Below are positions 3,806 to 30,461 of a DNA stretch of 62,761 nucleotides, one piece after another (positions within the stretch are counted from its first letter, which is position 1; each line of letters starts with the position of its first letter). The stretch spans positions 1 to 62,761 of the forward strand of contig JAENRP010000232.1 of NCBI GenBank assembly GCA_024741835.1, read 5' to 3'. A program made the translations under genes and the position numbers. This DNA comes from Diplocarpon mali (taxonomy: Eukaryota; Ascomycota; Leotiomycetes; Helotiales; Drepanopezizaceae). Under the pieces are notes generated by a model, which searched no databases, was not told the DNA's origin, and was given only the letters and a program-made list of their open reading frames with translations.

Positions 3806-4113
3806 TTAAACGAAGAAGTTCTTCTCTACTAGGGACGGCTTTTAATAATATCCTACTCCTTCTGAAAATTGATTCGCGGTTGTTTCGACTTTCGATAGAG
3901 TTAGGATCCTAGAGATCTTTTAAATAAACTAAGAGCTTAAGTATAGCTTATTAACTAGTATAATCAAGGAACGCTTTCATTAGCCGGATTTTCTCAACCA
4001 CTCCTTTTATAAAAGCGCTATAGGCAGAAGTTAAGAGAGTACCACGCTACTGGAACCCTTTTTCTGCAAAACCCCTTTTTAACCGAATCCCTACTAAAAC
4101 TAAAATCGGTAAA

Positions 4114-8400: not shown

Positions 8401-9416
8401 TTTAGTGGATTTATCGATTCGGCCACACTCTAGAGATAATTACCTCCGACCGAGGCCCCCAATTCGTCTCCTCATTCTAAAGAGAGTTCTGCCGCATTAT
8501 CAGTATTAAGATTAAACTCTCTATAGCATACTATAAGGAGATTAACGGCCAAACGGAGATCATAAATAAGTATATTGATTTAAGGCTATAGCCTTTTGTT
8601 AATTACTATTAAGATAATTAGAGTAAATTGATTCTATTAATAGATTATGCACAATCGACTCTCCCTTACGCTTTAATTAGTATAATCCTATATTAGCTTA
8701 GGTATAGAGTTGCGCCTTAGATAAGTTAGGACTAGATCTCTTTAAAAACGTCTAGCTTGCAAGAGAAATTGAACTAGGCAGAAGCTAAGCTAGTAGTAGA
8801 GAGGATGTACGCAGCTTAGGAAGTAGCAAAAGGCAATATAGAATATGCCTAAGAGAAAATGCATAAGTCTATAAATCAATACCAAAGGGAGATTAATTAG
8901 AAACCTAAAGATATAGTCTACCTTTTAATAAAAAATCTTAAAAACTACCGCCCTAATAAGAAACTGGCCAATTAATAGGATAGTCCTTTTGAGGTTCTTA
9001 AAAAGGTAGGCAATTTATATTAGATCAAGCTGCCTATAGGTTTTATAATATATAATATCTTTGCGCTAGAGCTACTATTTAAAGATCTGCAGAACCCTTT
9101 GCTAGGTCAGGAACAACCCTAGCCTACTATAGAAAAGATCGCTAAGTAAGAAGAGTATAAAGTGTCTAAGATACTAGGTGTACGCCTATCTTAAGGAAAG
9201 CTAGAGTACTAGGTCAAATAGACTAGTTATAACCCTAATTCAAGTTGGTATTACGCCTTAAATTTTACAGGATCCTTGCATAAGATTCGCGACTTTCATT
9301 AGGCCAATCCTATAAAGCTAGGACCACCTTAGAACCTATAAGCTTAGCTAAAGGCTTAGGAAAGTGGTATAAATGATTATAGTCACTTGGAAGATAATAG
9401 GCCAGATGCGAAATAG
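5451..9416 (+). pseudogene. Gypsy-A pol: protease, RT, RNase H, integrase, chromodomain
   Basis: The order of domains is typical of a Ty3/gypsy chromovirus. A protease-like LALVDTKAL lies near 5560. The RT has [11 protein letters not shown] (about 6602-6634) and the catalytic YLDD at 6900-6911. RNase H lies around 7320-7560 (IYSDHCSLKYF). An integrase follows (SDRGPQFVS, about 8440-8475; NGQTEIINKY, about 8547). At the C-terminus, about 9130-9300, a chromodomain-like stretch reads KLEYQVKWTSYNPNSSWYY before the stop near 9416. Frequent TAG/TAA stops replace Gln or Trp. The chromodomain would target insertion to methylated-histone heterochromatin, which fits the position inside another transposon. 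Confidence 0.88.
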
Positions 9417-9514
9417 GTTAGTAAACAAATTTAAAAATATAAATAAAAAAAAAAAAAAGGAGAAAAACAATAAAAATAGAAAAACAATAATGCCAGGCCA
9501 ACTGCCCCCTCCCC

Positions 9515-10467
9515 TTATAACTCTTCTAACCCCTCCTCCTCTACGCTTAAGGAGACAAGCTCCAACTCCGTTCCAGAGCTAGAGCTCGCCTCCCAAATAC
9601 GCCCCTGCTTAAAACGACCCCGACCTCCTCCTCTTGCTGCCACTGGCGCCGCCCTACTAGCCGCTGCGCCTGACGCTACCCTCGCTATTACAAGCCCCCC
9701 TCCCCCTATAAGAGACTCTACTACTATAGCGGTCCGCTCTGCCGACGCAGCGATAGACCTTAAGAAGCTTAGCATAATTCGGCTAGATTGCTCTAACCTC
9801 GCTAGCCGGGACTTAATAAGGTCGCCGCGCTCCTATTAGAAAGTCAGCGGTCGATTTAATACTAATTCAGGTTTAACTTATAGCAACTGTCGCCTAGATC
9901 CCCTTTAGCTAGCTTGCCGTAGCTTTAGCTATAGAGCAGAGCTCCGCAAAGCTAGCACGCTCTAGTTAAGAGCGGCTAGTCGGAGCCTCCGCGCTAGCTA
10001 CTAGCAGGAGGTTAACGAGAATCTAGGCGCGCCAGACCGCCTCTTAACAAAGTATCTTGCGGTTCCCTGCTAAAACCGCCTAAGCGTTATTATTATTATC
10101 ATCGCCACTATTATCCTCCTCTTGCTGCTAGGCAGCCTCCTCCCGCTACTCCTTAAGGGCCGCGGATAGCGCTACAAACTCCTTACTAATATAAGAGGGA
10201 AGCTGTAAACAAGTGTTAGCGCGATTAGAACTTTAGACTCGATTTAAGGTACTTATAGGAATGCACTCTGCCTTCTGCTCCTAGCACTAGTAGTACTTCT
10301 TACTACGCTCTGATTCGAACTCACATTTATACGTAATATCGCGCATAAGGCGCTACACGCACTAATAGCAGCATACGTAGTAGGCCACTGCAAGGGCGCC
10401 TAACAGCAGGAGAATTGGCACTATGCGTATTAGACGCGATTCAACCCTAGACTAAGGCAAACTTACT
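9515..10467 (-). pseudogene. Gypsy-A antisense gene: Zn2Cys6-like cluster protein with one intron
   Basis: A coding region runs opposite to the element between pol and the 3' LTR. Exon 1 (about 10467 to 9882) encodes a hydrophobic run (VPILLLLGALAVAYYV), then cysteines spaced C-x2-C-x11-C-x9-[C]-x2-C-x6-C (bracketed Cys is Tyr here, TGC to TAC), with KCEFESERSKK before the fourth. An acidic Gln/Asn stretch follows (about 10085-10140). The frame then changes across a 49-nt intron (9833-9881) whose donor reads ATAAGT, one RIP step from GTAAGT. It has a GCTGAC branch point and a TAG acceptor. Exon 2 (9832-9515) runs 105 codons to a stop without interruption. In-frame stops in exon 1 are RIP-type. 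The start codon is not resolved. Function unknown; the Cys pattern suggests zinc or DNA binding. Confidence 0.72.
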
Positions 10468-10749
10468 TATAATAGTTAGTAGTAGTAGTAGTAATTGTTT
10501 CTGCTACTATATATTAGCCCTGCGCTATAGTAGTAAGAGTAGGAGACCTATGCGATAGTATATAATTGTTATACTAAGGAAGGAAGATCCTACAAAGGGA
10601 AAAACAAATTTAAGTATATAATGCAACTTGCACTAAACTAAATATAGAATAGTACTATTTGCATAATAACGCACTAAGTATATTACTATACGAAAATTGT
10701 CATAACCTTCTAACGCTTATAGGCAAGCGTTCTCAAAGGGGAAGGGTAG

Positions 10750-11056
10750 TGTAATAGCTGCACCTCCACTTAATGCAATTACCTAAGAGTATAGCATTTT
10801 AAGGTTTCACAATCTCGATTTAATATAGGGTTTTCTTGAATCGACCCTAAAGAGGCAAAAGGATATTCTTACATAATATTATATAAACGGGCAATAGAGC
10901 TTCTAGCTGCTATATATATAAGGAAGAAGGGCTCTCCCCTAAGGAGGGTTCTCTAACTTCTTCGTTTCCTTCGTATTAGACCTATAGAATACGCCTTTTG
11001 CACCACTTCTTACTCCCATACTTGATCTCGCACTTCGGCGGTTCTGTGTCGTTACA
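10750..11056 (+). repeat. 3' LTR of Gypsy-A
   Basis: A direct repeat of 3499-3805 with the same TG...CA ends, preceded by a polypurine tract and followed by the AAGCA duplication at 11057-11061. Differences from the 5' LTR are almost all C/T or G/A. Confidence 0.94.
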
Positions 11057-11061
11057 AAGCA

Positions 11062-14000
11062 CTTTTTAATATAATATACTAAGAAGGAAATAAGTAGCTA
11101 AAAGACCAGCTAGAGTTACAGACTTAAGAAGTACTAAACTTAATTATAGTATAATCTCTAAGATATAGAACAAGGTCTACTTTAGAATTTGCCAAGTCTA
11201 TGCGAATAAGCGAGCCACCTGCTTAAAGGGTTACTATAACTGAATAAGAGATATTACGCTAAGACTCGCTTTAGTAAGGATACCTTAGATATAATAATAA
11301 CACTTTATAAGATAACTTATATAAAGCAGATACTTTAAAATAAATAACCGAATAGTACAACTTTGAAAGAATACCTTATTAACCCTGATTAGGATAGACC
11401 TTAGTTTTATAATACTTAAAGATCCCGAATCTAATACTAATACTACTAATTTAATTAAGAGATAGATCGTTACCACCCTTTGCTATAAGGAGGGGTTTAA
11501 AAGCGCTTCTAGACCTTAACTAAAGTAATACTCAACTATCCTAATATATTATAGAACCTTTGACTTTAGATTAGGCTAAAACCCTTATAAATCTGAGTAA
11601 GATATATATTAAAAAGACTTAATACTTAAGTAGGAAAGATCACCTTAATAAGAAGCTTTATATATTCGCCGATTTATGCTAAAGAGCCTTAATAGACTAG
11701 AGCATATAGTATAGAGCCTTTCCATTTATACTATAAGACTCGGCCTTAACGTACTACTATTAGTACTTGCAAAATAAGAACTTTAAGTTTACTAAGCTAA
11801 TAGAGGCCATTCGGGCCAATTACAAGACCGAAGAGAGAAGTAGCAGATTCCTAAGGAGGTAGTTTCAGCTGACATTTGACCTATTCTAATAAGAAGACTA
11901 TTAAAGGGAGAAACCGATCCTGACCTAACTTAAAAACTATATTAAGGAGCTGCAGAACTTGCAATTAGGCCTATATACTAGTATAAGGAACGATCGATCG
12001 ATTAGAGATAGACTTATATAAGGTATTTCTAAGAATCGGCTTTTTTAAATAGTACTTTTTAAGCTACTAGCGACGTTCCTAGCTTTATTAAATAGCTTAT
12101 AAGCTTGCGTAAGAATAGTTGCCTAAGATAGACCATCTAGACCCTAATACCCTAGTTCGGCTACTAATAGACCCTAATATTATTTAGCTAAGGAGTAAGA
12201 GTAATCTATAGTATACTTTTCAAATAGAAAGATAAAGTTTACCTAAGGTAATAAAAGAGGAATAACCTTCTAACTAAAACCAGGCTATATAGGGTGCATT
12301 ATATATTAGAAAAAGGACTGCTATAATAGCAAGTACTTAAAAGAAGAAAGAGCCGCTTAGAAGTCTCACTATATAGTAAGCCAATAAGCCAAAGGGTATA
12401 AGCTAATAGATAAAATATATAAGGCATACCTTTTATAAAAATATAAAGGAGTATATTTAAAGGGCAATAGGACCGATAAGGATAAGTAGGAAATGTCTTT
12501 AAAAGAGGAGGACCAAGCGATTAGCGACCTTAAGGATAGTAATATCAACTTCACTATAGTATTCCTAGCTTTTAATTAGGAATATGACTTAAGAACTATG
12601 CTTAACTAGCTTAAAAAGCAGAAGGCTAAATACCTCTTAATAATAAGGGTTAATAAACTGATATAAATGGACCTTAAGGTATTTATAATATAGTAGATAG
12701 ATCAATTCTTTTAAAGATTCTTAATTAATATAAGCGCTTTAAATAAAAATATAAGAGGAATCAACTAATTTAAAGCCTTATAAAATATATAAGACGCAGT
12801 TCTAGCTCTACTCAGCGCTAAAAAGTATAAAATTACCTTTAGGGCAGGTTTATAAAATACAATCGGCAAGACAACTGTTCGAATACCAGCAGGCCCTATA
12901 GAGTTCTTAATTGTAGAGGCAGATATACTGTTTTTAATCTACTTGCAATAACTTAATAAAATAGGAGCTAAATATAACAATCTGCGCAATTTGCTTATTA
13001 TTAATAAGGAGAAATACTTAATTATTAGAAAACATAAGCATATATAGCTCTTACTTAATATAATAGAGCAACTTCTAATAACTTTAAAGGGTACGATTAA
13101 TATATGCCACTTAATAGAAATAGAGATCCGAAGGCTATATAAAAGATTTGAATATCCTTTAGTAAAATGCCTTAAATACCTTTTGAACTAGGCCGGTTAT
13201 AACGTCAACTCTAGCATTATAGTAAGAGTAAGGGAAATATGCCGATATTATCAACTCTACGCCAATGCTCCTTATAGATTCTGATTCAAGCTATAAGATA
13301 ATATTAACTTTAATTATACTATATATATTAATATTACTCAGTTTGATAGAAGGAACGCCCTTTATATAATTGACAAAGCAATAGGATTTAAAGCCGCAAG
13401 GTTCTTATAAAAAGGAATAAGAGCATATTCGGCTGATGTAGTATTTTAAGCCTTTAAATTGGCTTGGCTAAATATATATATTAAACCTCTTGATTTTATA
13501 ATATACAACTATAATACTAACTTTAACTTAGTAGAGTTCAAAAGCTCTTTAAGATCTATAGGAATAACCCTTAAACTAATTCCTATAAAGGCGTACTATT
13601 CTATTAGCAAGGTTGAATAGTATCATCGCCCTTTAAGACATGCCTTTAAGATAATAATAGCTAAATACCCTTGATTAAGCGACGATAAGAGGCTATAAAT
13701 AGCTATTAAAGCAATTAATAATATAGCAGGGCCTAATAGAATGATTCTTACTTTACTCGTTTTTAAGGCATATCTAAGGCTAATTGAACTAAATCTACCA
13801 AATCCGTCGGTAGAATAAAGGGCAGCAACAATTAAGAAGGCTATAAAGGAAGTGAAGAAGATCTATACTACTTATAAGGTCAATAACGCTTTAAGTATAA
13901 GAAATGGCCTTAGAACCACTTATATCTACAATTTAAAGCTAAAAGACCTAGTATTAGTATATTAGAAGAAAGGAGGATAGATAGGCCTATTCGAGTTCCT

Positions 14001-15465
14001 AAGCTTAGAGAACGAAACCTATATAGTTAATATTAGCAGTAGAATAAGGCACTTTAGATCGATAAGTATACGTCTATTTAAAATCGATAATAAAGAAAAC
14101 TGCTTAAAGGAAACTAAAGGAATTAAACCTAAGGATTAAACAACTATCAAAAGGGAGTAGAATGCAACCGATATCGATAAAGAAGTAGAGCCCTCTTACT
14201 TAATTGAACCGCAACTTAATAGCTATAAGCAATTGCTAAGAGTAGAGGTTCCCTTTATTAAGCCTATTTCTAATCTTCTTATAATCGATAACAACTATAA
14301 TACTAAGATATAGATATCCTTTAAAGCAAATGATAAGCTATATATAGCTAAATCGGAGGTATTCTTAATAGAGAAGGAGAATAGGGACTAGGAACTATTA
14401 CAAAAGCTATAGGCAGAAGGCAAGATTACTACTCCTAGGCGCCCTTTCTAGCAATCTCGCTTAAAGGAGTACTAAGGGCTAATAAATAGAAGGGTATTCG
14501 TATTAATAAATAAAAATGACCTTGCTATAAAAGGCAAGAGGATCTTCAAATCGAAAATAGTTAATAAGATAAAGGGGAAGGAGATAGATCACCTATTTAA
14601 GAAATCACGCCTAATTATATAAGCTTAGAACGATATTAGTAAGAAGGAGGAAGGTATAATCACTTAATCCTTAACTATCTAATAAGTAAGCTAACGCCTT
14701 TTAATATCACTTTTAATATTAATCTAGGAACACTTTAAAGAATAGGGTAAGAAGGGCATTCTCGGCCTATAGGATATTATATAAGCGTATACCTAAGTAG
14801 CTTCGAAGCTATTATACAATATATTTATATTTCCTCTATAAGATATTGCTAAGCTATTCCCTATAGGTATAGTCTTTAAAGTAGTGCTGCCGCTTTATAG
14901 CATTCCTAAATTAGGAAATCACTAGTTTAGCACCTACTATAAGTACTATTATAGCAATCTTAGTATAACTAACTCAACTTATAACTTCTATCTATTATTA
15001 ACCTTAAGCACTTCTCCCTTTTTCGGTATAATAGGAATATAAATGGACGATACTTTAATACTTGGAGAAGCAGACTTCTTGAAAAAGGAAAAGGATAAGA
15101 TCAAAAGGGTAGGATTCCTTATAAAGCTAATATAATACTTATTAAGCATTGAATTATTGGCTTTTAATAGGTATATTATTTCTTAAGAAGGGGATATAAT
15201 ATATATGCGATAAAAGGGCTAGGGCCAAAGGCTAGAACTAGTCGACACTTCTTAAGAGGGCTATAAGTAATAATACTTAAAGTAGAGAGTAAGAGGAGCT
15301 TATTTAGCTACAATCTACTAGCTAAAAGCTTCCTTCGATTTGTTAACTATAGCCTAACACTAGGATCTAATAGTTTAAGATATAGAGAATCTAAATAAGC
15401 GACTTAAGTAGATCTGAAATAACCCTAAAAGAGGCCTAACTTACTTTGCTATCAATTTGCAAAAC
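11062..15465 (+). pseudogene. Copia-1A gag C-terminus, protease, integrase and RT
   Basis: This continues Copia-1A after Gypsy-A. It is collinear with the minus-strand Copia-1B copy (29460 down to 25231). Recognisable are the gag zinc knuckle (C-I-x2...DCYxSKxLKEE, about 12296-12350), a protease segment (about 12840-12960), a GAG-pre-integrase region (about 13085-13290), integrase (about 13300-13820) and an RT with the MDDTLILG active-site stretch near 15040-15065. The sequence breaks at TTTGCAAAAC (15456-15465), exactly where Copia-1B inserted; the RNase H continues at 30457. Many RIP-type stops. Confidence 0.85.
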
Positions 15466-15764
15466 TGTAGGTTCTATACCGGTAATCGATATTCACGTGA
15501 ATATAGTTGAGTACTTATTGTCAAAAAGAATCTATTATTATATCTGTCTATCTTTACATAACCGAGATGGTACCTTTATACCTATAAATGTCCTCCCTCC
15601 TATAGTCCCTCCTAGCCGCATATAGATATCCTTCCGAGGTCCTCCGGCTGAATAGCCGTCCGAAATACATACGAAACCCCTTATATCGCATATGGTACAG
15701 CTGTGTAGGATGACCCTAGGAACAAGGGCAGCTTGCCTCCTGCATAGGAATCTGCGTACTAACA
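15466..15764 (-). repeat. 3' LTR of Copia-1B
   Basis: 299 bp. On the minus strand it reads TGTTAGTACG at its start and AACCTACA at its end. This is the least damaged copy of the family LTR in the window, with both TG and CA termini intact. Left flank AAAAC. Confidence 0.94.
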
Positions 15765-16001
15765 CCGGCAGTACTCTCTTTTGAAAAGACCTTTTCAACT
15801 CGCATAAGGAAGTACGCAGAACAGGTGCATAAAGGAGGCAGATCGGTAGTAAATAATCAAATGACAACAAAGAATAAAATAGCAAAGACAAATAGCTTGA
15901 TAGCAAAGGCAGGTGTAATAGGTGGTAAGGATAGTATATAGGAAATAGAATAGCAAAGATAAAGGCAAATAGCAAAGAGGGAAAGGAAAGGTGTCCAAGT
16001 G

Positions 16002-16256
16002 TGTTACGACTCGCTCTCGAGCGTGCAGAAGGCGAGAATCGAATGACGCTGACTGTATTACCCTAAGAGGTACGCTATGTAATTGAGAAGAAAAGATAAA
16101 GAAGAAGAGAGAGTCTTTAGTAAAGCTCCTTTAGAATAAGTATAGGTGCATCACTAGCGCGCACGTGATCTAGCCACCTTGCTACTTTAGCAGGCACCTG
16201 ACTTTGTGCACCTAACTAATACGTGATATAACTATATATATAATGCGGCTATAATA
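16002..16256 (-). repeat. 3' LTR of Gypsy-B
   Basis: 255 bp, repeated at 22899-23153. On + it starts TGTTACGACTCG and ends in a RIP-altered ACA (ATA). A diverged solo relative lies at 41788-42024 in the opposite orientation. Confidence 0.94.
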
Positions 16257-16269
16257 CTACCCCTCCCCT

Positions 16270-19200
16270 TTGAAAAACTGCGCTTGCGCAATTGTATCTA
16301 TAGGCGTATTATCCTCTAGTTCCCTATAATCGTTAACTCCCTTATTATATGACCTAAGCCAGCTTAATAGCGCCCTTAGTAGCCCCTTAGCTTAAGGGTT
16401 TTTTAAATGGAAGTCTTAAATAGCATGCGGCGCCATTATAGCATTAGAGCATAGGTACTATTCAAGGTCTTTATTAGCTCCTTTCCACTTAATCTGATAT
16501 TCGAGCTTCTTAGCTTAAATATAAGATCTAATTATTTCTTTTATCTCCTATTCCTCTTATTCTGGCAGTACTTTAATTAGAGCAAGAGGTTCTTAAGCTT
16601 GGCCTAGCAAAGGGTTAGGAATATACTTTCGCAGTGAGTGGGAGTAGAATATAGGGTAGATCGAATAGAGCGAATTAGGCAATTGTACCTTCCAGCTTTC
16701 TCCCAGCTTTTCTAGTACTTTTACTAGGCTATACTACTTGTCAGAGAGCTTTCGGCTCGGCCGGTCCAGTTTCCAATTCTTAGTACTAATTAGCATATTA
16801 TCTCTTATAGTCCAATCAACTGGCCGGCGGTAGAGATCTACAAGCCGTTTCATTTTAGCTTATTATGCTTAAAGAGACAACTAGGCGAATTGGACTACTT
16901 TTTAAGCTCTAGTAGCTATGCAGAGTGCCGTTTTACGATTTACTCTCTCAATTGCTATCTGTAGAGGCTCTGGGTTAATTAAATTCCACAAGGAGCGAGC
17001 TTTGTAGCCGTTTAGCACTTAGAAAGGGGAAATTTGCCCTAGGGATTCGTAAGGCAAGGTCAATTGGGCAATATCTATTAAAGGCAAGAGACGACTCCAA
17101 TTGTCTTAGTAGTATAAGTAGAACGGTCTGAGGCGTTGTTTTAAGTACTAGTTTATAATCTTAGTTTGGCTGTTAACGTTAGGGTTATAGGCTATAGTTA
17201 GCTTAACCTTTATACTTAGTATCCGATAGAGTTCTTTTTAAAAGGAAGAGACGAATTAGGCGCCTCTATCTAATAGAATTAAGTCAGGCATACTAAAATA
17301 GCGTATCTAGTGAACTAAAAACAACTTTGCAAGGCCTTTTGCGTCGATCGAATTATAGTATAGAACCGAAACTGCCTTCTTTAATAACCTATCGATAATT
17401 ATAAGGGCAAAATTATAACCGAGTTCGTCAAGCAGAAGCTCTATAAAATCTATTATCAAGTGTTAGTAAGCTCGTTCGGGAATTGGCAAAGGTTATAGGA
17501 AACCTGGGGTCTTATTACAATAAGCTTTTATTCTTAAATAACAATAGTTTTAGATGTAAGTGCCGACGTTGCTACTAAGACTTTTCCAATAGTATTTTCT
17601 TCCTACTAGAAGTCTTATTTTCCTAATCCTAGCGTATATAACGCAAGGTTGCTTATGCATATAATGAATCAGGGCTATTTGCAGTTCGGGAGGTTGGGAT
17701 AGTATAACGAATCTACCTTAGAAGAAGAGTTTGCCTTAGCTGAATTTATAGTCGAGGCTATGCTTCTGCGCCTTGTCTCGGAATTTCTATAGCTTAAGGG
17801 AGGTCTTATTAGCTTAAATGACCTCGTCGATAATATAGTAGCTTGCCATGTTATACTCGACCCTAGACGTTAGGTCGGCAGGTGCCTCTATTGGCGCGAT
17901 TGGCACGGTCGTTACTCGTAGGCCGGGCCTGGGAGTAGAATCGCCTCTAGTAGCGAGCACTTTTATAAAGAGCTTGTCGTTAGGTAAGAGCTGCTGGTGG
18001 CGTAAAGCTCGTTTCCTGGCCTTAAGAGGGGTCAGCTCCTGGTCTTAATATAAGAGTGTATTAGCCAGCGTATTCGTCGTGCCTATTTAGTATATGATAA
18101 GGAAGTTGAAATTAGCGAAGAACTCCGCCTAGCGAGCCTGCTGGGCTATTAAGTCCTTAGTTGTTATAAAGTACTCGAGGGCCTTATGATTTGTATATAC
18201 GTATACTGTTTTCTAGGCCCTAAGTAGCTCTGCCTTATACTAGTAGAACGATTTAAAAATCGCTAAGAGCTCCTTATTATAAATAGGGTAATTCAGCTCA
18301 GCGTTATTTATCGTCTTTAAGAAGTACCCGATTGAGTGGTAATTATTATCTTCCTAGAGTTAGAAGAGTACGCCGGCGACTACGCCGTCGGAGGCGTCGG
18401 TCTCAAGCCTTGTCTACTTTCGAGGGTAATAGTAGTATAAAATCGGGGTTGTTTGAAGGCTTGAGCGCAGAGCTTCCTAAGCTTCCTTACAAGTGTTATT
18501 AAAGTCAAAAGGAACGTTTCCTATAAGAGCTATCAAAGGTCGGCAGATACAACTATAGCCTTGAATGAACCTTCGGTAGAAGTTACAGAACCTAAGGAAG
18601 CTCTGTACGCTGCGTACGTTCTTAGTGTATTTCCACTCCTAAATGACTAAGACCTTATTAGGATTTACCTCAATTCCATGAACTCTGATAATAAACCTTA
18701 GGAACCTAGTCTTAATAACCTTGAACTCGCTTTTCTTAATATCTACTTAAAGGCTATGGCATTAGAGAATTCCTAAGATCTTCTTAATATAAATCTTATA
18801 GTTAAGGGAGTTTTCTAAGTAGATTAGAATATCATCTAAGTAGGTAGAGTAGAAATCGTCGAGGTGGTTAAGGAGAATATTATTAATAAACCTTTGAAAG
18901 GTAGCAGGCCTATTTATTAGCCCGAATGGCAAAACCTTATATTTATAGGTCCTATAATACGTGCGAAAGGTAGTCAGGTCTTTAGCGTCAGCTAATATAT
19001 AGATATAGTAGAAGGCTTATTATATATCGATTTTTATAAAAACACAAGCTTTTAATATGCGTGCTATTATCTTATTAATAAGGGGAATCAGGTAGAGGTC
19101 TTTCTTTATTAGAGCGTTTAGTTTCTAGTAATCGATATATAGACGTAGGGAGCTATTAGCTTTTCTAATAAAGAGGATTAGGGCTGCCTAAGGGGAACTC

Positions 19201-20640
19201 GAAGCTTCAATAAATCCTTTATATAGGTTCTTGAGAATATAGCTCTTGACCTCTGAGAGCTGTTCGTCAGTAAGGCGGCAGAGGGGTTCGATTATCAAGT
19301 TGTTCTCGCCTATTAGCTCGATTTTATAATCTACCCCTAGTCTGGGTTCCGGCAGCTGATCGGAGGCCTGGCGACTAAAGACGTTCTTGAACTTAGCGTA
19401 CTAAGGCAGGAGCTTCTAGTCTATTAGCTTATTATTGCTCTTATACTTAGCTTGCAGCGCCGAACTAAGGCCAAGGGAGCTAATTTCAGCTTACCTAACC
19501 GATTCTCGGCGATTGATTTCTTAGTCTAGATTGTAAATAGAGCTTACGAATGTGAACTCTTTAGGCGCCGGTTCTTAAGTCTATATAGCTCGTCTTACCC
19601 TAGTCGTAAAGCAGTAGTAGAGGGCGCCGATTGCTAAGGCTGAGATCAGGCTGATCTGGTAAGCCGGCTTTAAAGTAGCGTTCCTCTTTACTAGGAGAGG
19701 GAGTAAGGGGTCTAGTACTCCTAGCAAGGCCTTCTTTATACAGTTCAGATCTCTTTTCAAGTCTTTAAAGAAACTGCTATCCCTAGGTTTATAAAAGGCC
19801 ATAGGAGTAGGAATCGAATTAGCATATTTCACTCGCGGGCCAGGACTAGGAGTAGGATTCGAGTTCGCAGATTTCACTCGCGGGCCGGGACCAGGAGTGG
19901 GATTCGAGTTCGCAGATTTCACTCGCGGGCCGGGACCGGGAGTGGGATTCGAGGTGCTATTGCTTGCTAGCACCGAGAGCTAGGCTCGAGCCATTCTCAG
20001 GTCTTCGTCCTCGGCGTCTATCATAGCTGCTCGACAATCGACATCTTGCTAGGCTATTAGGGGTTTTATTAGCTATGAGAGATCGATTAGTACGCGTCAA
20101 TTAAAATAGAAGACGATAGGCATATCCTTAAGCTAAGAGATACTGTTTTTCCCTTTTCTATAGGATTATTTAAAGTCATAGTGCTTTAGGAACTTCCTGC
20201 CGATCAAAACGTCGGTTGCTCCTAAGCTTATGATTAGGAAAGGGAAGTTTATTCATCGCCTATTGATTGTAAGGGTAAGTAAGATAGCGAATCGAATGGT
20301 TTCTCCCTCGAGGCCATTATAGCTAATAGGGGTAATCGGTTTAGGCAGTTTAATGAACTTCACCTCAAGTCTTTAAGAGAGCTAGTATACTAAAGACGTC
20401 TTAATAATACCGAAAATATTAGCTCTACTATTAATATAGGCAACTGTTTTAATAAATGATCCATTTCAAGCTAGTTCTATAAGAACCAAGAACTAGCGGC
20501 CGCCTATTAATAGGCAGGAATCAAAATCTAAGTCTTTCTACAAATTGTAACCTATACTATAGTAGGAGTCTTTGCCACAGCTTAGCAGTTTCCTAATAGC
20601 AGGTCGTTTTCCATCTTAACTTTAGCTACCATAAACTCGC
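16270..20640 (-). pseudogene. Gypsy-B pol: protease, RT, RNase H, integrase, chromodomain
   Basis: The minus-strand translation gives a protease-like VLIGRKFLKHYDF (about 20165-20205), the proline-rich repeat segment at 19811-19953, and an RT with [11 protein letters not shown] (about 19115-19150) and the YLDDILIYLEN active site (about 18815-18850). RNase H and integrase regions follow (about 18400-16700). Near 16430-16560 a chromodomain-like stretch reads KLEYQIKWKGANKDLEWY, the last Trp being TAG in the DNA. The same C-terminal module occurs in Gypsy-A. RIP-type stops interrupt all domains, but one 130-codon open stretch remains (19581-19973). Confidence 0.86.
19811..19953 (-). repeat. Three tandem 45-bp units coding a 15-residue TPGPGPRVKSANSNP repeat
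   Basis: Three near-identical 45-bp units keep the Gypsy-B frame. The most damaged unit reads PTPMAF/YANSIP at its edge, while the inner two read NPTPGPGPRVKSANS. They lie between the protease and RT portions. The core DNA, ACTCGCGGGCCGGGACC followed by GGGAGT, is GC-rich and nearly palindromic. It is the same motif found in Copia-O. Confidence 0.85.
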
Positions 20641-21895
20641 CTTACTTCTTTAGCTTTAGGCAGTCTATCGTATAGTGACCGGGGGCTCTGCAGTTATAGC
20701 AGAGACCAGATGACGGCTTTAGGCTGGCAGACCTTTCTCAATAAGTCGCTAGCAAGGGGGAATAAGTATAAGGAGCTAGGGAGGTAGCTATAGCAGTAGG
20801 TCTCTATGACTCCCTTTTCAGTATGCTAAGGACGCGGTCCTTCGCAGGAGAGAACGCGACAGCAGGGGCGACTCGTCGAGCGTTATAGGCCTCTTTTTAC
20901 TTAATATTACAGGCCTCGCAGTCCGCAATAGCTAAGAACTCATCTAAAGTAGTATAATTATTATTCATTTTATACTTCTCTACTCGAAGGTCGTTCTTTA
21001 AAGCCAGGGAGACCTTTTCACAAATATCATCAAACCAGTAAGACTGATCGATCTTTCCAGCTATAGCAAGGGTGACGAACTTGGATCGGAACTCGTTGTA
21101 TAATAATGAACTTATAGTTAGCCTGCTATATTTGAGCTTAGCGGATTGAATATAGTTGTGGTTAAAGAACCTCTAATCCAAGACCTTAAGGACGTCGGCA
21201 GCATATATAAACTTACTAGCAAAGACAGGATCTATATATTATAGGATCAGGTTCTAAGCTTCACCTATTATATACTTAAAGTAGGCAGTGATCTGGTCCT
21301 CTCTTAAAGTGAAGTTGCCTAAGTACTCTTAAATGAATACTTTTATAGCCATCTTTCAAGCGTTATAGGTGATTTCGCCTTAGTAGTTGCTAAAATGGGT
21401 TTAAGGGTACTTAATTCGATAGGGGTCGACGGCTGGGATTAAAGGTCTGATAATTAGGAGGTAGTAGTCTAGGGGAGGCAGCAAGTCGGCGGTAAGGGAC
21501 TGAGTGTTCCAAGGGCTAGCACTTAAGGAAGAAGGGGCAGCAGCATTATTTTAGAGAGCGGCGGCTATAGCAGCGCTAATGAGGTTCGCGATTTCGGCCT
21601 GCTAAGCAGCTGAAAAGAGAGGGGCCGACATAGTAAGGGTAGACGTCGGTTCTTCCTTGACTTTAATCAACAGAAGGGGAGTATTTCGAGAATCCACTCG
21701 CAGTCCAGGACCAGGAGTAAAATCTATACTAAGGGAGGTAGCTTCTTAAGTAGGCTTAGGAGGGGGAATATCTCTAGGACCGGGGTTGGCAGTAAGGCCT
21801 ATAGAACTAGAACTGGTAGTAGTAAGGCCTAGAGAACTGGTGGCAGTAAGGCCTAGTAGAGGTGCGGTTAACCTTTCACTCCTTTTAAATGGCAT
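20640..21895 (-). pseudogene. Gypsy-B gag
   Basis: A good start codon at 21895 opens MPFKRSERLTAPLLGL. The frame continues with RIP-type stops through a gag-like capsid region (YNEFRSKFVTLAIAGKI, about 21055-21105). It ends in an intact retroviral zinc knuckle CYNCRAPGHYTIDC (about 20655-20700; C-x2-C-x4-H-x4-C). Near its N-terminus one copy of the TPGPGLRVDS motif is in frame (21694-21729). It would form the particle core; it is dead here. Confidence 0.8.
21694..21729 (-). repeat. Single TPGPGLRV motif in Gypsy-B gag
   Basis: On the minus strand this reads D-F-T-P-G-P-G-L-R-V-D-S in the gag frame. The DNA core, CACTCGCAGTCCAGGACC then AGGAGT, is another copy of the near-palindromic motif. 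Confidence 0.75.
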
Positions 21896-22321
21896 AAGAT
21901 TGGAGGTTACGAGTACTAACTCTCTCTATATTATTTAGTTTAGTCTAGAGGGACCTAATGCTAAATAGTGACCTATTTAAAAGGGGGAAGATTAGTACAG
22001 GCGGAGCTGTGTATATTCTTAAAGCCTTTTAGTAGAGTATGTATTGAGGTATTATAGGTTTATAGATCTTAAGAAAGAAGGTTTTACTTCGGGATTACGT
22101 CTCTTTACTAATTAGGAGTTGCAATAAGGTTGCCTAGGAGTGCAGTGCAAATCCGGGGAAGTAGGGTCCGAGGATCTAAAGCTTATCACTCTACTAAAGT
22201 TGACTTAGTCTCTAACAGTATAGTATAACCTACTAAGGCTGATTAAGTCTCTATATATATATATAGGTATAGGTCCCCCAGTTTGTACTTAAGTGTTTTA
22301 AAGGAAGGAGTAAAGGGCTTC

Positions 22322-22514
22322 AAAGAGTGTAAGGAGAGTTGTCGACGAGTATGGTCGATAAGGAGTATAAAGAAGGTCGACGACTTATTCGCAAGGAGGG
22401 GTCTTTAAGGAGTCGAGTTATATTCGAGGCTTTCGCAAAAGAGGGGGAGTATTAAAGAGTATAAGGAGAGTTGTTAATAAGTATATTATCGATGAGTATA
22501 AGGTCAATGAAAAG
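22322..22514. repeat. Imperfect duplication in the Gypsy-B leader
   Basis: Two about 60-bp related blocks (22322-22383 and 22454-22514) both begin AAAGAGT(G/A)TAAGGAGAG and contain TCGATRAGGAGTATA-like segments. They lie in the untranslated leader between the 5' LTR and gag. No function can be assigned. Confidence 0.55.
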
Positions 22515-22898
22515 AGTAGTATAGAGTATTTATAAGGGAGGGAGAGAGTTGGGAAGAGAAAAGTTATTATACTGCTTTAGGCAGTAGCTTATGCTAGCGA
22601 AGCGAGGGCATAGTGAATAATTTTTTTCGAATTAAACTTAAAGGTGAATCTCCGTTTGCAAAATGAAGGAAGAGGTAAAGGGTCGAAAAAACGAGCTGAT
22701 CTCGTATTCGAAGGTTGTTCAGCTTTCTCTGAAAACTAGATCAGTGAGATAATCTAGGCGCTACGTACGAGTTGCTTAGGGCAGTTCGTAGTAGAAGTCG
22801 AAATCGAGAGATTGAGTTGCTTAAGGCAGTTCGAAATGACGATTCTAAAGGTGGTAGATATTAAGCTTCTTAGCGAAGGTTGAGTTGATCTTTTCTTA

Positions 22899-23153
22899 TA
22901 TTACAACTCGCTCTCAAGCGTATAGAAGGCGAGAATCGAATGACGCTGACTATATTACCCTAAGAGGTACGCTATATAATTGAGAAGAAAAGATAAAGAA
23001 GAAGAGAGAGTCTCTAGTAGAGCTCCTTTAAAATAAGTACAGGTGCATCACTAGCGCGCATATGATCTAGCCACCTTGCTACCTTAGCGGGCACCTGACT
23101 TCGTGCACCTGACCAATACGTGACATAACCGTATACGTAATGCGGCCGTAATA
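22899..23153 (-). repeat. 5' LTR of Gypsy-B
   Basis: 255-bp partner of 16002-16256, with the AAGTG duplication at 23154-23158. Its + strand start TATTAC is a RIP-altered TGTTAC. Confidence 0.94.
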
Positions 23154-23462
23154 AAGTGATGGAAGCAATCTAAAGTCTTTGTTCGAGCCTTGTAGTAGTG
23201 CGATTGTAATCCGGTTGCGTTCTGGTAGGTTCGAGACTCTTTGTTGAAGAGTCATCTGGAGTTGTAATCCACTATGGCTATAAATCATAATGATCTATAG
23301 AAGGGAAAAGAGGGGCCTTTGAGAAGGCATATATATCGAGCTTCCTTCCTCCTTTGATCTCTCAACTCCAACTCCTACTTCTTATAAGTAGGTCGATTCC
23401 CCCTCTTACTTTTGAATTGATTAACCCTTTGGTAGATCTTATCCCATATTAACTTATTACCA

Positions 23463-24364
23463 ATATCATTATTATTAGTAAGTGCTCCGATTATTGGCCG
23501 ACCCCCTCTAATATACACATCGCTGACTTAGATAGTGCTCGAATGCAATCCCGAGGACCTGCCTAAGGCCTTTCGGATGCTATGCGTACATTATGCGCGT
23601 ATGATATTAAGAAAGGAGGCTAGTAAGAACAATACCGGCTATATATGCGCATTTAATACTCTCACTTCTAAGAAGTATGACTACTGCATTGCGCAGTAGG
23701 CAAAGTGTGTCCTAATAAGTGCCCTCTGATATCCTCTTGCTTTAATAACCTCTGATAGATGTCTATTCTAGATACCCATCTAGGCTCGGGATAAGTACAT
23801 CATCCTCTAGGATGCTCGGGTTGGCGGCGACGTTAAAGCGATCTAAGAGGCAGCCCGAATCCTGTCTAAGGAGACTCAGATACAAATCTCTATAGTCCTA
23901 AAGACTCGGGATGCCCTTCAGCTGGCCTAGCTAAACGAAGCTCGTGCTCTCTGCTGCAGTATCGACCTTGCGAATACCTAGCAAGCTGTACGTGCCCCTG
24001 AATCTATCTAATATCGATGACTAACTGTTCGCAGGATCTGTTACGCGCCGTCCGAGGCGGCAATGCTGCCCTCGGGCGTCTTGAAACTTAAGGCGCCGAG
24101 GTGCTCGGCTCCCTCTAGCGTATAGAAGGGCTATCCAGCTCGGCTGGGGGCCGCTCTCGGGCTCCCTCTAACAATGTCTGCCGCCAAAAAGGCAAGGGCA
24201 GATAGGTGCCTTCCGGGGGCTCTCTAAAGGGTAGGGATCTGGATCTCGGTGATCTAGATAAGCCGAATCCAGAGGAGATTGCGGCCGCTCTTGCTTAGGT
24301 GCGAGCTCAAGAGGAGCGGGCCAACTTGGCCGCTGCTTCGGGTAGTAAGGCTTCTAGGCCTTAA
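23463..24364 (+). pseudogene. Copia-1B antisense gene: Zn2Cys6-like cluster protein with one intron
   Basis: The coding region is opposite to Copia-1B, between its RNase H and 3' LTR. The likely start is ATA at 23463 (a RIP-altered ATG), reading SLLLVSAPIIGRPPL. Exon 1 then carries cysteines spaced C-x2-[C]-x17-C-x9-[C]-x2-C-x6-C (bracketed Cys read as Tyr, TAT), with the SKK triplet before the fourth. Exon 1 ends at 23987 with a phase-0 donor GTACGT. The 47-nt intron (23988-24034) has CTAAC and CAG. Exon 2 (24035-24364) runs 109 codons to TAA, ending GSKASRP, interrupted only by RIP-type stops. The region is GC-rich for this block. A TATATATA box-like stretch lies upstream at about 23327. 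Function unknown; possible nucleic-acid-binding factor. Confidence 0.78.
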
Positions 24365-24741
24365 GGGTTTAGGGATCTACGCCCTAGAAATCCTAGTACT
24401 TAAGATAAGTGCTTATTAGGGGTGGAATTGTTAGTAGATCATTATCTTTAGCAATATAATAATCGCTGCTTTGCCATAACCTCCTTCTTAAGTACTGCTC
24501 AAGTGATAAAAAAAATGCAAGTACGCGCAGGTAAGTAAGAAAAGATAAAAGAAGGTAGTAATAGCAAGTGTAGGAATATATCTCGCAGTAAAAATAAAAA
24601 AATAAAAAAATTGCCAATAGCTTGCAATTAAAAATATCGGATATCGTCAATCTAGGACCTTTTTAGGTCTGGTTGTACCCTGATAGGCCTTTGTACCTAT
24701 CCCTCCTTCCTAACAGTTATCGAATTGGTGTCCACCAGTTG

Positions 24742-25230
24742 CTAAAGGGCCTGATTTGGATTGGCTTTTATCATAGCATCGGCGGGGTTGCTAGCGCTAT
24801 TAATCCAACGTATCTCTATAAGCTCCCTATTCTTATACGATTGTCGTATAGCCATTATGTCAATTATCAATCGCTTCTCCTTTATGGTGCCCAATTTGAC
24901 AATATACTTATATAAGGAGAGGGAATCTGTACATATAACAGTAGGGAGGCGGGGTAGACTCAGCTTAGCTATTACCATATCGATCGTCGTAGCTATAGAA
25001 ACTAGTATATCAATACCTGCCACTATAGCATACAGTTCAAAGGCCAGTATAGCTCTTGTCACTCTCTTATACTTCGTCGAACTGTAGTATAGAATATTGC
25101 CTTTTAGAGTAAACTGCGATTCTCCTTCCTCTTCAGTAGCTAGTACGATAATATAGCCGATCTGCGAGCTTAAATCCTTGTTATTAGCAAAAGATCCATT
25201 GATAAATGCGAATAGTTTGGCGTTCTGCAA
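24742..25230 (-). pseudogene. Copia-1B RNase H domain
   Basis: A 162-codon open stretch starts at the segment matching 30462 in Copia-1A. It contains FAFINGSFANNKDLSSQIGY (first Asp-region strand), the AFELYAIVAGI core Glu, the ICTDSLSLYKY Asp motif and a C-terminal WINSASNPADAMIK. This layout is that of copia RNase H domains. The domain would degrade the RNA strand during reverse transcription. It is continuous with the RT upstream apart from RIP stops. Confidence 0.88.
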
Positions 25231-28130
25231 ATTAATAGCAAGGTAGGTCAGGCCTCTTTTAGGGTTGTTTCGGATCTATTTAAGTCGCTTATTTAGATTC
25301 TCTGCATCTTGAACTATCGGATCCTAGTATTAGGCTGCCGCTGATAAATCGAAGGAAGCTTCTGGCTGGCAGATTATAATTAAATAAGCTCCCCTTACTC
25401 TCTGCTCTAGGTATTATTGCTTATAGCCCTCTTGAGAAGTATCGACTAGTTCCAGCCTTTGGCCTTGGCCCTTTTGTCGCATATATACTATATCCCCTTC
25501 CTAGGAAATAATACACCTATTGAAAGCTAGTGATTCGGTGCTCGATAGGTGTTGTATTAGCTTTGTAAGGAATCCTACCCTTTTGATCTTATCCTCCTCC
25601 TTTTTCAAGAAGTCTGCTTCTCCGAGTATCAAAGTGTCATCTGTCTATATTCCTACTATACCGAAAAAGGGAGAAGTGCTTAAGGTTAACAATAGATAGG
25701 GGTTATAAGTTGAGTTAGCCATACCGAGATTGCTACGATAGTGCTTATAGTAGGTGCTAAACCAGTGGTTTCCTAATTCGGGAATGCTGTAGAGCGGCAG
25801 CACCACTTTAAAGACCGTACCTATAGGGAATAGCTTAGCGATATCTTATAAGGGAAATACAAATATATCGCATAGTAGCTTTAAAGCTGCCTAGGTATAC
25901 GCTTGTATAATATCCTATAGGCCGAGAATGCCCTTTTTGTCCTATTCTTTAAAGTGTTCCTATATTGATGCCGAAAGTGATACCAAAAGGCGTTGGCTTG
26001 CTTATTGGATGGTTGGGGATTGAGTGATTATGCCTTCCTCCTTCTTGCCGGTGTCGTTCCAGGCCTGTACAACTAGGCGTGATTTCTCGAATGGGTGATC
26101 TTCTGCCTGTAGCTTCCGCGACAGTTCCTGGTCCCTATTCTCCTTCTCCGTCAGGAATACCTCCGATTTGGCCATATATAGTTTGTCGTCTACTCTAAAG
26201 GATATCTATATCTTAGCATTATAGTTATTATCGATTCTAAGAAGGCTGGAAATAGGCTTAACAAAGGGAACCTTTACTCTTGGCGATTGCTTGCGGCTAT
26301 TAAGTTGCGGCTCAACTAAGCAAGAGGGCTCCACTTCTTTATCGATGTTAGTTGCGTTCTACTCCCTTTCGGTAGTCGTTCGATCCTTGGGTTTAATTCC
26401 TCTAGTTTCCTTTAGGCAGTTTTCTTCATTGTCGATTTTGAATAGGCGTACGCTTATCGACCTAAAGTGCTTTATTCTGCCGCCGATATTGACTATATAG
26501 GTTTCGTTCTCTAAGCCTAGGAACTTAAATAGGCCTATCTATCCTCCCTTCTCCTAATATACTAACACCAGGTCTTTTAGCCTTAAATCGTAGATATAAG
26601 TGGTTCTAGGGCCATTCCTTATGCTTAAAGCGTTATTGACCTTGCGAGTAGCATAGATCTTCCTAACTTCCTTCATAGCCTTCTTAATTATCGCTGCCCT
26701 CTATTCTACCGACGGATTTGGTAGATCTAGTTCAGTCAGCCTCAGATATGCCCCGAAAACGAGCAAGGTAGGAATCATCCCATTAGGCCCTGCTGTATCG
26801 TTGACCGCTTTAATAGCCATTTGCAGCCTCTTATTATCGCTCAATCGGAGGTATTCAGCCGTTATTATCTCAAAGGCACATCTTAAAGGGCGATGATACC
26901 ATTCGACCTTGCCGATAGAATAGTGCGCCTTTATAGGAACCAGTTTAAGGGTTGTTCCTACAGATCTTAAAGAGCTTCTAAACTCTGCCGAGTTGAAGTT
27001 AGTGCTATAGTCGTATACTACAAAATCAAGAGGTCTAATATAGGTATCCAGCCAAGCCAATTTGAGGGCTTGAAACACTACGTCGGCCGAATATGCTCCT
27101 GTTCCCTTTCGTAAAAACCTTGCGGTTCTAAATCCTATCGCTTTATCAACTATATAAAGGGCGTTCCTTCCACCGAACTGAGTAATATCGATATATATAG
27201 TATAATTAAAGTCGATATCGTCTTATAGCTTAAATCGGAATCTATAAGGAGCGTTAGCATAGAGTTGACAATGTCGGCATATTTCCCTTACTCTTGCTAT
27301 AATGCTAGAGTCGATGTCATAACCGGCCTGGTTTAGGAGGTGTTTAAGGCGCTTTACCGAAGGATGTCCGAATCTTTTATATAGCCTTCGGATCTCCATT
27401 TCTATCAAGTGGCATATATTGATCGTACCCTCTGAAGTCATCAGAAGTTACTCTATTATATTAAGTAAGAGCTATAAGTGCCTATGTTTTCTGACAATTA
27501 AGTGTTTCTCCTTGCCAATAATAAGTAAATTGCGCAGATTGTTGTATTTAGCTCCTATTTTGTCGAGTTGTTGTAAGTAGATTAAAAACGGTATATCTGC
27601 CTCTATAATTAAGAACTCTATAGGGCCTGCTGGTGTTCGAACAGTTGTCTTGCCGATTGCATTTCGCAAACCTACCCTAAAGGTAATTTTATGCTTTTCA
27701 GCGCCGAGTGGAGCTAGAACTGCGTCCTATATATTTTGCAGGGCTTTGAATTAGTTGATTCCTCCTATATTTTTATTCGAGGCGCCTATATCGATTAGGA
27801 ATCCTTAAAAGAACTGATCCGTCCACTAGGTTGTAAATACCTTAGGGTCCGTTCGTATAGGTTTATTGACCCTTGTCGTCAAGAGGTATTCAGCCTTCTG
27901 CTTTTCAAGCTGGTCAAGCATAGTTCTCAAGTCATACTCCTTCTCAAAAGCTAGGAATACTATAGTGAAGTTGATATTACTATCCTTAGGGTTGCTAATT
28001 GCTTAGTCCTCCTCTTCCGAAGAGGTTTCCTATTCATCCTCATCGGTCCTATTGCCTTCCGAATATGCTCTATTATCTTCTCGAGCAAGGTATGCCTTAT
28101 ATATTTTGTCCATTGGCTTATAGCCTTCGG
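25231..28130 (-). pseudogene. Copia-1B protease, integrase and RT
   Basis: Reading down the minus strand there is a protease segment (27669-27472, IGKTTVRTPAGPIEFLIIEA), a GAG-pre-integrase domain (27441-27223, RLYKRFGHPSVKRLKHLL with two CxxC-type cysteine pairs, CRHC) and an integrase core (27078-26701, FVVYDYSTNF and VPIKAHYSIGKVEWYHRPL). An RT follows with GIVGIxTDDTLILGEADF near 25620-25655, the TDD being the catalytic pair. Domain order PR-IN-RT-RH defines Ty1/copia. TAG/TAA stops divide the polyprotein. Confidence 0.88.
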
Positions 28131-29760
28131 CTCGTCGGCTTGCCATATAGCGAGACTTCTAGGCGGCTCTTTCTTCTTCTAAGTGCTTACTACTATAGCA
28201 GTCCTTTTTCTAGCATATAATGCACCTTATGTAGCCTAGTTTTAATTAGAAGGTTGTTCTTCTCTTATTACCTTAGGCAAACTTCATCTTTCTATCTGAA
28301 AAGTGCGCTATAGATTGCCCTTGCTCCTCGGCCAAATGATATTAGGGTCTATTAGTAGCTAAACCAAGGTGCTAGGGTCTGGATGGTCCGTCCTAAGCAA
28401 CTACTCTTGCGCAAGCCTATAAGCTATCTAATAGAGCTGGGAACGTCGCTAGTGGCTTAAAAAGTGCCATTTGAAATAGCCGATTCCCGGAAACACCTTA
28501 TATAAGTCTATCTCTAATTGATCGATCGTTCCTTATACTAGCATATAGGCCCAATTGCAAGTTTTGCAGCTCTTTAGTATAGTTCTCGAGTTGGGTTAGG
28601 ATCGGTTTCCCCCTTTAGTAGTCCTCTTATCGGAATAGGTCAAATGTCAGCCGAAACCACCTCCCTAGGAATCTGCTACTTCTCTCTTCGGTCTCGTAAT
28701 TGGCCTAAATAGCCTCTACTAGATCGGCAAACTTAAAGTTCTTATTTTGCAGGTACTAATAGTAGTACATTAAGGCCGAGTCTTATAGCATAAATGGAAA
28801 GGCTCTATGCTATATGCTCTAGTCTACCAAGGCTCTTTAGCACAAATCGGTGAATATATAAAGCTTCTTATTAAGGTGATCTTTCCCGCCTAAGTACTAA
28901 GTCTCCTTAGTATATATCTTACTCAGATTTACAAGGGTTTTGGCCTGATCCGAAGTCAAAGGTTCTATAATATACTAGGATGGTTAAGTGTCGCTCTAGT
29001 TAAGGTCTAAAAGCGCTCCTAAACCCCTTCCTATAGCAAAGGGTAGCAATGATCCGTCTCTCGGTTGGATCAGCGGCATTGGTATTAGATTCGGGATCTC
29101 TAGGTATTGCGAGACTAGAGTTCGTCCTAATCAGGGTTGATAAGGTGTTCTTTTAAGGTTATACCATTCGGTTATTTGTCTTAGAGTATCCGCTTTATAT
29201 AAGTTGTCTTGCGAAGTGTTATTATACCTAGGGTGTCCTTGCCGAAGCGAGTCTTGGCGTGGTATCTCCTATTCAGCTATGGTAACCCTCTGAGCGGGTG
29301 GCTCGCTTGTTCGCATAGATTCGGCAAATTCTGAAGCAGACCTTGTTCTATATCTTGGAGATTATGCTATAACCGAGTTCAGTACTTCTCGGGTCTGTGA
29401 CTCTAGCTGGTCTTCTGGCCACTCGTTTCCTTTTTAGTATACTGTATCGAAAAGTGCCTAGCCGATCGAAACGCCCTTCCCGCGCTAAACGTATACTCTA
29501 TAGTACCGAAGGTCGTCCCTTAAGCGTCATCGAACGTCCTTATCTAGCGATTTAAAGTCGCTAACTATCCAGTCTTAAAACTCCTTCTAGAAGTCCTTAG
29601 CAAGGTATAGCCCTCTCCTTTTGCCATCTTATAATATCTTCTAAAAGTTCTCTATATATTGATCTTTTGGTCTAAGGGCCTCTTCGCTAGGTTGATCCTC
29701 TTAAGGTCTTGTATCCCTTTCAGGGTCCCTTAGTGTCTAGGGTTGCCTTAGATTAAGCGG
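28130..29760 (-). pseudogene. Copia-1B gag
   Basis: A RIP-broken gag frame continues directly into the protease. A copia-type zinc knuckle, CIICxKKDCYSSKHLEEE, lies at about 28180-28235; the x is a TAG stop. Upstream, capsid-like helices can be followed in one frame with Gln/Trp-to-stop changes. It is the homologue of the split gag of Copia-1A (about 2990-3498 plus 11062-12350). Confidence 0.72.
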
Positions 29761-30456: not shown

Positions 30457-30461
30457 AAAAC

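Follow-up and report, generated by a model that had tools for sequence, protein, structure and literature searches.

In a 62,761-nt stretch of the Diplocarpon mali genome (contig JAENRP010000232.1, here C232; hereafter the window, meaning this whole stretch), which belongs to a 49.4-Mb genome in 676 contigs, we found that two long terminal repeat (LTR) retrotransposons each carry a gene between pol and the 3' LTR, on the strand opposite to gag-pol, and that the first coding exons of these two genes encode a similar cluster of six cysteines. Gene 1 lies in a Ty3/gypsy element (element A), and gene 2 lies in what is likely a Ty1/copia element (element B). The two genes are very probably homologous on the evidence of their aligned copies, and because the six-Cys exon is shared and is enclosed by predicted introns at the same places in both, we favor, with some reserve, descent from one ancestral intron-bearing antisense accessory gene that is now present in a gypsy family and a probably copia family of the same genome. 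The features of the two genes are as follows.

10421 to 10466, minus strand: gene 1 predicted intron 0, 46 nt, cutting the start codon (A at 10467, TG at 10420-10419), from splice consensus.
10257 to 10420, minus strand: gene 1 exon 1, the six-Cys exon, 55 codons including the split ATG, from copy alignments.
10203 to 10256, minus strand: gene 1 predicted intron 1, 54 nt, phase 0, two codons past Cys6, from splice consensus.
9882 to 10202, minus strand: gene 1 exon 2, 107 codons, from alignment, and helical in a low-confidence structure model.
9833 to 9881, minus strand: gene 1 intron 2, 49 nt, phase 0 after Ala, from copy alignment.
9515 to 9832, minus strand: gene 1 exon 3, 105 codons plus stop, from open frame and alignment.
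23478 to 23535, plus strand: gene 2 predicted intron 0, 58 nt, cutting the start codon (A at 23477, TG at 23536-23537), from splice consensus.
23536 to 23714, plus strand: gene 2 exon 1, the six-Cys exon, 60 codons including the split ATG, from copy alignments.
23715 to 23771, plus strand: gene 2 predicted intron 1, 57 nt, phase 0, two codons past Cys6, from splice consensus; an alternative end is possible at 23783 (69 nt).
23772 to 23987, plus strand: gene 2 exon 2, 72 codons (68 with the longer intron 1), from alignment.
23988 to 24034, plus strand: gene 2 intron 2, 47 nt, phase 0 after Ala, from copy alignment.
24035 to 24364, plus strand: gene 2 exon 3, 109 codons plus stop, from alignment.
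31702 to 32209, minus strand: a second gene-2 copy (region of exons 1 and 2) in an outer copy of element B, from a genome match (31702-32205) and the splice pattern (32149-32209); it shows the identical split-start-codon arrangement.

An original prediction made from the letters of this DNA had described each gene as two exons separated by the phase-0 intron after an Ala codon, which corresponds to our intron 2. That intron, which Ala directly precedes in 18 of 20 gene-1 and 18 of 19 gene-2 copies, stands with its proposed length of 47 to 49 nt, as do the last exons of 105 and 109 codons; the two-exon layout does not, since two more introns, both overlooked before, are predicted in each gene. 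The Asp-Leu pair said to follow the intron within three codons is found there in gene 2 (codons 1 and 2) but falls at codons 4 and 5 in gene 1.

Copies of both genes are numerous and heavily mutated. Of 195 gene-1 and 157 gene-2 candidates in the genome, 150 each were scored, nearly all containing stops, and the counts given throughout refer to 20 gene-1 and 19 gene-2 copies, the best matching among the 150 listed per gene; one of 20 gene-2 copies (L035) was left out of alignments and counts, as an insertion, apparently element A, interrupts it. Variation between copies is nearly all C/T and A/G in the gene-1 region (2454 of 2546 minor-base counts) and mostly so in the gene-2 region (2176 of 2562), the pattern expected from repeat-induced point mutation (RIP).

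Gene 1 encodes C-x2-C-x11-C-x9-C-x2-C-x6-C and gene 2 encodes C-x2-C-x17-C-x9-C-x2-C-x6-C; in both frames SKK precedes Cys4 and a Gln and an Ala lie between Cys5 and Cys6, as previously read, and exon 1 has basic residues between Cys2 and Cys3. The motif had first been read after Tyr was reverted to Cys to undo single RIP steps; that it depends on this reversion we reject, as natural copies contain all six Cys together (7 of 20 for gene 1 and 1 of 19 for gene 2), and no residue other than Cys or Tyr occurs at the six positions in any of the 20 gene-1 and 19 gene-2 copies. The profile comparison proposed with the original prediction bore out the similarity: aligned with hhalign, the gene-1 and gene-2 profiles gave a P of 3.4e-5 and a score of 36.1, above all 300 column shuffles (maximum, 22.9); a reversed-and-rotated control yielded almost a single value and was set aside. 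Zn2Cys6 binuclear clusters have the spacing C-x2-C-x6-C-x(5 to 12)-C-x2-C-x(6 to 9)-C, and the genes resemble them in the C-x2-C at the beginning and the C-x2-C-x6-C at the end, whereas the Cys2-Cys3 spacing is 6 in Zn2Cys6 and 11 or 17 here. The suggested fit to the second half of such a cluster thus holds for the spacing, but membership in Zn_clus is rejected on the Cys2-Cys3 spacing and the Pfam result: with the two window sequences (X at stops), no Pfam family was matched at E values up to 10, including Zn_clus and bZIP. Searches by sequence found no relatives in the PDB and none in viral contigs or prokaryote genomes, the last two results being as expected for a fungal gene.

The homology signal extends over the whole of exon 1, which aligns end to end between the genes (55 versus 60 codons) and places Cys1 at residue 18 in gene 1 and residue 17 in gene 2. 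In global alignments of exon 1 from natural copies, the best pair scored 79.5 and the mean over 380 pairs was 30.7, with 179 of the 380 pairs above the maximum of 30.0 found in 2000 shuffles; refined exon-1 profiles gave a P of 1.9e-5. Similarity is also visible in the DNA, where copies L025 and L032 share 40 of 52 nt (77%) from the codons before Cys4, through Cys6, and into and through the donor GTAAGT, and it was this continuation into GTAAGT that pointed to the splice donor. DNA matches were obtained in 345 of 380 copy pairs (best, 46.8 bits for L026/L048; median, 31.1; register checked for only part of the best pair matches), compared with 120 matches in a control with reversed gene-2 copies (best, 32.6 bits; median, 24.0). 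Together, the predicted intron structure and the DNA similarity are stronger evidence of homology than that originally offered.

The predicted introns around exon 1 are well conserved among copies. In both genes intron 0 has the form A|GTAAGT...TAG|TG and cuts the start codon, such that the ATG of the six-Cys frame would exist only in spliced antisense mRNA. For gene 1, the A before the donor and the GTAAGT are each present in 20 of 20 copies, with TAG|TG in 17 and TAA|TG in 3; for gene 2, the A is found in 19 of 19 copies and GTAAGT in 18 of 19, and the acceptor reads TAG|TG in 14, TAG|TA in 3, and TAA|TG in 2. The joined codon is accordingly Met in all 20 gene-1 copies and in 16 of 19 gene-2 copies (Ile in the remaining 3), and the base at -3 to the split ATG is A in every copy of both genes. 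Upstream, every one of the 20 gene-1 copies has in-frame stops at codons -13, -14, and -20; in the gene-2 frame the first frequent stop lies 36 codons earlier (15 of 19 copies), and within the upstream stretch examined no ATG is shared by as many as half of the copies. The strict form of the split-start pattern occurs at three places on the two strands of the window, each at this exon (gene 1, gene 2, and the outer-B copy of gene 2), compared with 0.025 per 45-kb strand in a Markov null of 40 draws; it was written after both genes had been seen, and two of the three places belong to one family.

In all 20 gene-1 and all 19 gene-2 copies a donor-like hexamer starts 9 nt downstream of where the Cys6 codon begins, and only six such conserved donor-like sites occur in the 1367 columns of each gene. 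For intron 1 of gene 1 the donor is [AG]TAAGT in 20 of 20 copies (GTAAGT in 2, ATAAGT in 18), and a branch-like site and a TAG or CAG acceptor are likewise found in all 20. The donor of gene-2 intron 1 is [AG]TA[AG]GT in 19 of 19 copies; at the 57-nt end the acceptor is TAG in 9 and TAA in 10 and a branch-like site is present in 19 of 19, and at the 69-nt end the acceptor is TAG in 12 and TAA in 7 and a nearby branch-like site is present in 0 of 19. The donor of intron 2 is GT in 3 of 20 gene-1 and 4 of 19 gene-2 copies and AT in the remainder, as RIP would leave it.

The distribution of stops also bears on coding. We called a stop column unexplained where no copy shows CAA, CAG, CGA, or TGG, and counted such columns in six frames over four blocks, three of which favor the proposed frame. 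In exons 1 and 2 of gene 1 the proposed frame has 1 unexplained column, versus 3 to 7 in the five other frames, and in exon 3 it has 0 versus 2 to 5. In exons 1 and 2 of gene 2 it has 4 versus 5 to 12; of these four, one falls inside predicted intron 1, another does so only with the 69-nt intron, and one is a stop in a single copy. When the count was made over blocks crossing introns, the frames were not separated. Judged on splice sites and stop columns together, the antisense genes are likely to be spliced and protein coding.

Several results weigh against this account. When the six Cys columns were masked, the hhalign score fell to 14.0 and was matched or exceeded by 87 of 300 shuffles, which is chance level; the best alignment of the masked profiles keeps the original register, but significant profile similarity outside the cysteines, taken alone, is rejected, and because of this the motif alone leaves convergence open. 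Exons 2 and 3 have no profile similarity between the genes (P of 0.48 and 0.25), so that the homology originally proposed for the genes holds for exon 1, by its predicted introns, DNA, and profiles, and is rejected for the last exons; because the exons flanking it do not align, the place of intron 2 cannot be called homologous. The splicing is predicted from consensus sites, which are damaged in many copies. In gene 1, intron 1 would keep the frame if retained and contains 0 unexplained stop columns, making read-through possible, and in half or more of the gene-1 copies the predicted leader exon contains an out-of-frame ATG, possibly of a short upstream frame, 47 nt ahead of the start codon. 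The codon between Cys4 and Cys5 of gene 1 is a stop in 20 of 20 copies (TAG in 18, TAA in 2), which fits RIP of a Trp codon. Exon 3 of gene 2 does not favor the proposed frame, with 2 unexplained columns versus 0, 1, 2, 6, and 6 in the others, and one of its codons is a stop in 19 of 19 copies (TAG in 10, TAA in 9). Finally, the structure prediction that had been suggested as a check produced two models with mean predicted local distance difference test (pLDDT) scores of 52.0 and 44.6, which say nothing about the cluster.

The genes are consistently linked to their elements. In all 12 copies fetched, pol is followed by the gene tail to tail, in a sample biased by having been fetched via the gene; both LTRs, pol, and the gene are present in 5 of 6 element B and 5 of 6 element A stretches, the remaining B stretch having only the 5' LTR and the remaining A stretch only the 3' LTR. 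We also started from pol, using the 40 best copies of the pol 3' end per element (from 153 candidates for B and 200 for A) and searching the lists of up to 150 matches per gene for a copy no more than 2 kb away. The gene lies beside 35 of 40 pol copies of element B, with one more apparently cut by an insertion of element A (contig C5) and four not listed, and beside 35 of 40 of element A (34 via exon 1 and one via exon 3); of the other five A copies, one sits at a contig end and four are absent from the lists. In both A and B the gene thus accompanies most family members sampled, as is characteristic of the antisense additional open reading frames (ORFs) of LTR retrotransposons discussed below.

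The host elements in the window are the following.

3499 to 11056, plus strand: element A, Ty3/gypsy LTR retrotransposon, from repeats, domain order, and flanks.
15466 to 30457, minus strand: inner copy of element B, probably a Ty1/copia-type LTR retrotransposon, interrupted by element C, from repeats, weak domain matches, and flanks.
About 2495 to 33079, plus strand: outer copy of element B, interrupted by element A and inner B, from repeats.
16002 to 23155, minus strand: element C, Ty3/gypsy, sitting in element B upstream of gene 2, from repeats, domains, and flanks.

Element A has LTRs at approximately 3499-3798 and 10750-11049, with a few further terminal bases, and a 5-bp target duplication (AAGCA). 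Its Pfam matches run in the order RVT_1 (3.4e-29), RNase H, Integrase_H2C2, and rve (9.6e-9), and by the order of reverse transcriptase (RT) before integrase and by its RT family it is a Ty3/gypsy element. The original claim that Ty1/copia and Ty3/gypsy elements share the gene is therefore firm on the gypsy side, but element B is only likely to be Ty1/copia. Its frame, read by eye, runs from integrase to RT to RNase H, the copia order; one of six fetched copies scanned (L049) matched the GAG-pre-integrase domain (gag_pre-integrs, E of 0.0018) followed by integrase (rve, E of 0.07), both below Pfam cutoffs. An RVT_2 identity was rejected, as neither the window copy nor any of the six fetched copies scanned matched RVT_2 and hhalign detected no similarity between element B and another copia RT of the window. 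Thirteen weak PDB matches to the B polyprotein (E of 0.14 or worse) were taken as chance.

These insertions form a nest of four elements (window positions 2495-33079) in which outer B contains A and inner B, and inner B contains C; inner B and C are flanked by 5-bp target duplications (AAAAC and AAGTG, respectively). Elsewhere in the genome A occurs within B (L060) and B within A (L053), and A apparently interrupts gene-2 copy L035. At about position 26100, the pol of inner B is without approximately 166 nt that are present in B copies L049 to L054 and in outer B. A different copia-type RT (RVT_2, 8.8e-33) adjoins the nest at 33463-34185 on the plus strand. A profile scan of the window found no six-Cys exon near this RT and no antisense six-Cys gene in element C. 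The nest lies in the AT-rich part of the window, which has 30 to 46% G+C per kb up to about 45 kb and 53 to 63% from 46 kb onward. On the GC-rich side are a host aquaporin-type gene (MIP, 3e-42) at 60121-60882, minus strand, and, at 48708-49468, six copies of a 104-nt repeat, the others 61 to 91% like the reference copy; these repeats fall in a 489-residue open frame with no Pfam match.

As a mechanism, we suggest that antisense transcription would start in or near the 3' LTR and run toward pol, and that splicing of this RNA would yield a protein of about 267 residues (gene 1) or 241 residues (gene 2) with a metal-binding head and element-specific tails. Tentatively, this product may be a nuclear regulator acting on the element's own expression, by analogy with the antisense factors of some retroviruses. 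The genomic RNA would carry only the complement of the introns, which the spliceosome would leave in place, and the gene would pass each replication cycle unspliced; from known biology, its introns should survive reverse transcription because the gene is antisense to the genomic RNA. The gene could have come to be shared through transfer between elements or through two captures of related host genes. A mobile antisense cassette, in which a six-Cys factor with a splice-dependent start codon moved between LTR superfamilies in fungi, is a speculative extension that we regard as rather doubtful.

The alternative that survives best is that the host possessed a group of related small six-Cys proteins whose genes had this intron layout and that each element captured a different one in antisense orientation, a serious contender that we nevertheless put somewhat short of an even chance. 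It agrees with the failure of exons 2 and 3 to align and with the weakness of DNA matches outside the motif: comparisons between the 3' regions, LTRs, and 5' regions gave weak matches only (best E of 0.037), so that whole element ends were not recently swapped. Against it, a 51-residue gene-2 query recovered 143 candidates in the genome, all scored and with 55 to 100% identity, of which none stood out as an undamaged host gene, the rows having been compared with the element list only partly; the weakest candidate (C16:62368-62472; E of 1.5e-7) is absent from the gene-2 element list. Distant host genes cannot be excluded by this query, because gene 1 was also missed by the same search.

Instead of acting on transcription, the protein could act in the replication cycle, in nuclear import of the preintegration complex, as a nucleic acid chaperone, or in integration targeting. 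The basic residues between Cys2 and Cys3 and the SKK before Cys4 would suit such a role, which is discussed for accessory proteins of LTR elements in the portions of PMC7264820 consulted, but element C, a gypsy insert of the same window, is without such a gene by profile, and we consider this explanation fairly improbable. It is less probable still that the antisense RNA itself is what matters, with convergent transcription producing double-stranded RNA that feeds silencing: the genes do face pol tail to tail, and double-stranded RNA is mentioned as a possible role of antisense transcripts in the same portions of that source (PMC7264820), but an RNA function would need neither a conserved Cys frame nor introns, nor a split ATG that has A at -3, nor frames in which most stops look RIP-derived. 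Convergence of unrelated genes on a common type of cysteine cluster, compatible with the chance-level score of the Cys-masked profiles and with exons 2 and 3 not aligning, is very improbable given that the two predicted intron positions and phases around exon 1 are identical in both genes, that Cys1 lies at residue 18 or 17 from the split start, and that DNA identity runs through the splice donor.

An antisense gene at this place is already known in kind from Boty and from plant elements such as Grande, to judge from the parts of the literature available to us. Boty, a Ty3/gypsy element of Botrytis cinerea, has the antisense gene brtn (PMC8365987, PMC7264820, PMC4227169, and PMC5987419); compared by description in these excerpts, the genes reported here differ in having three predicted introns and in occurring in two probably different superfamilies. 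The aORF-3R antisense additional ORFs of the plant elements Grande, RIRE2, Retand, and PvRetro13 resemble them in place, orientation, and presence in most family copies, whereas the passages describing them mention no six-Cys exon, split start codon, or copia/gypsy homology (PMC7264820). Bdelloid rotifer retroelements offer a parallel for the same accessory ORF in unrelated retroelement types, since their ORF3 types are common to unrelated retroelements, but the excerpted account places these in esterase and exonuclease families (PMC5408684), whereas here the gene is antisense and has predicted introns. HBZ of human T-cell leukemia virus type 1 (HTLV-1), whose transcripts begin in the 3' LTR and are partly spliced and whose factors lower proviral expression according to the sections seen (PMC6731619), is an analogy of layout only, in the sense of "works like" and not "is"; HBZ is a retroviral bZIP-type protein, whereas the genes here encode a Cys cluster and no bZIP was found by Pfam. 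An antisense gene common to fungal gypsy and copia elements was not found in titles and the beginnings of abstracts among the matches listed, with most subscription papers lying outside this search. What appears to be new is one homologous, intron-bearing antisense gene in two element families, probably of different superfamilies.

The function and most origins of antisense genes in LTR elements are stated to be unknown in the portions of PMC7264820 consulted. The shared exon with its matching introns provides a handle on origin, through comparison of an exon tree with the element trees, and its conserved residues provide a handle on function. The intron-cut start codon offers a simple, testable mark of genuine protein production from the antisense strand, and it hints at a reason for the antisense placement of these genes, since introns can outlast the RNA stage there. 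A mobile cassette of this kind, if real, would parallel the antisense regulators of retroviruses: its protein would be coupled to antisense transcription through the spliced start codon, and a gene with introns would come through reverse transcription by virtue of its antisense orientation.

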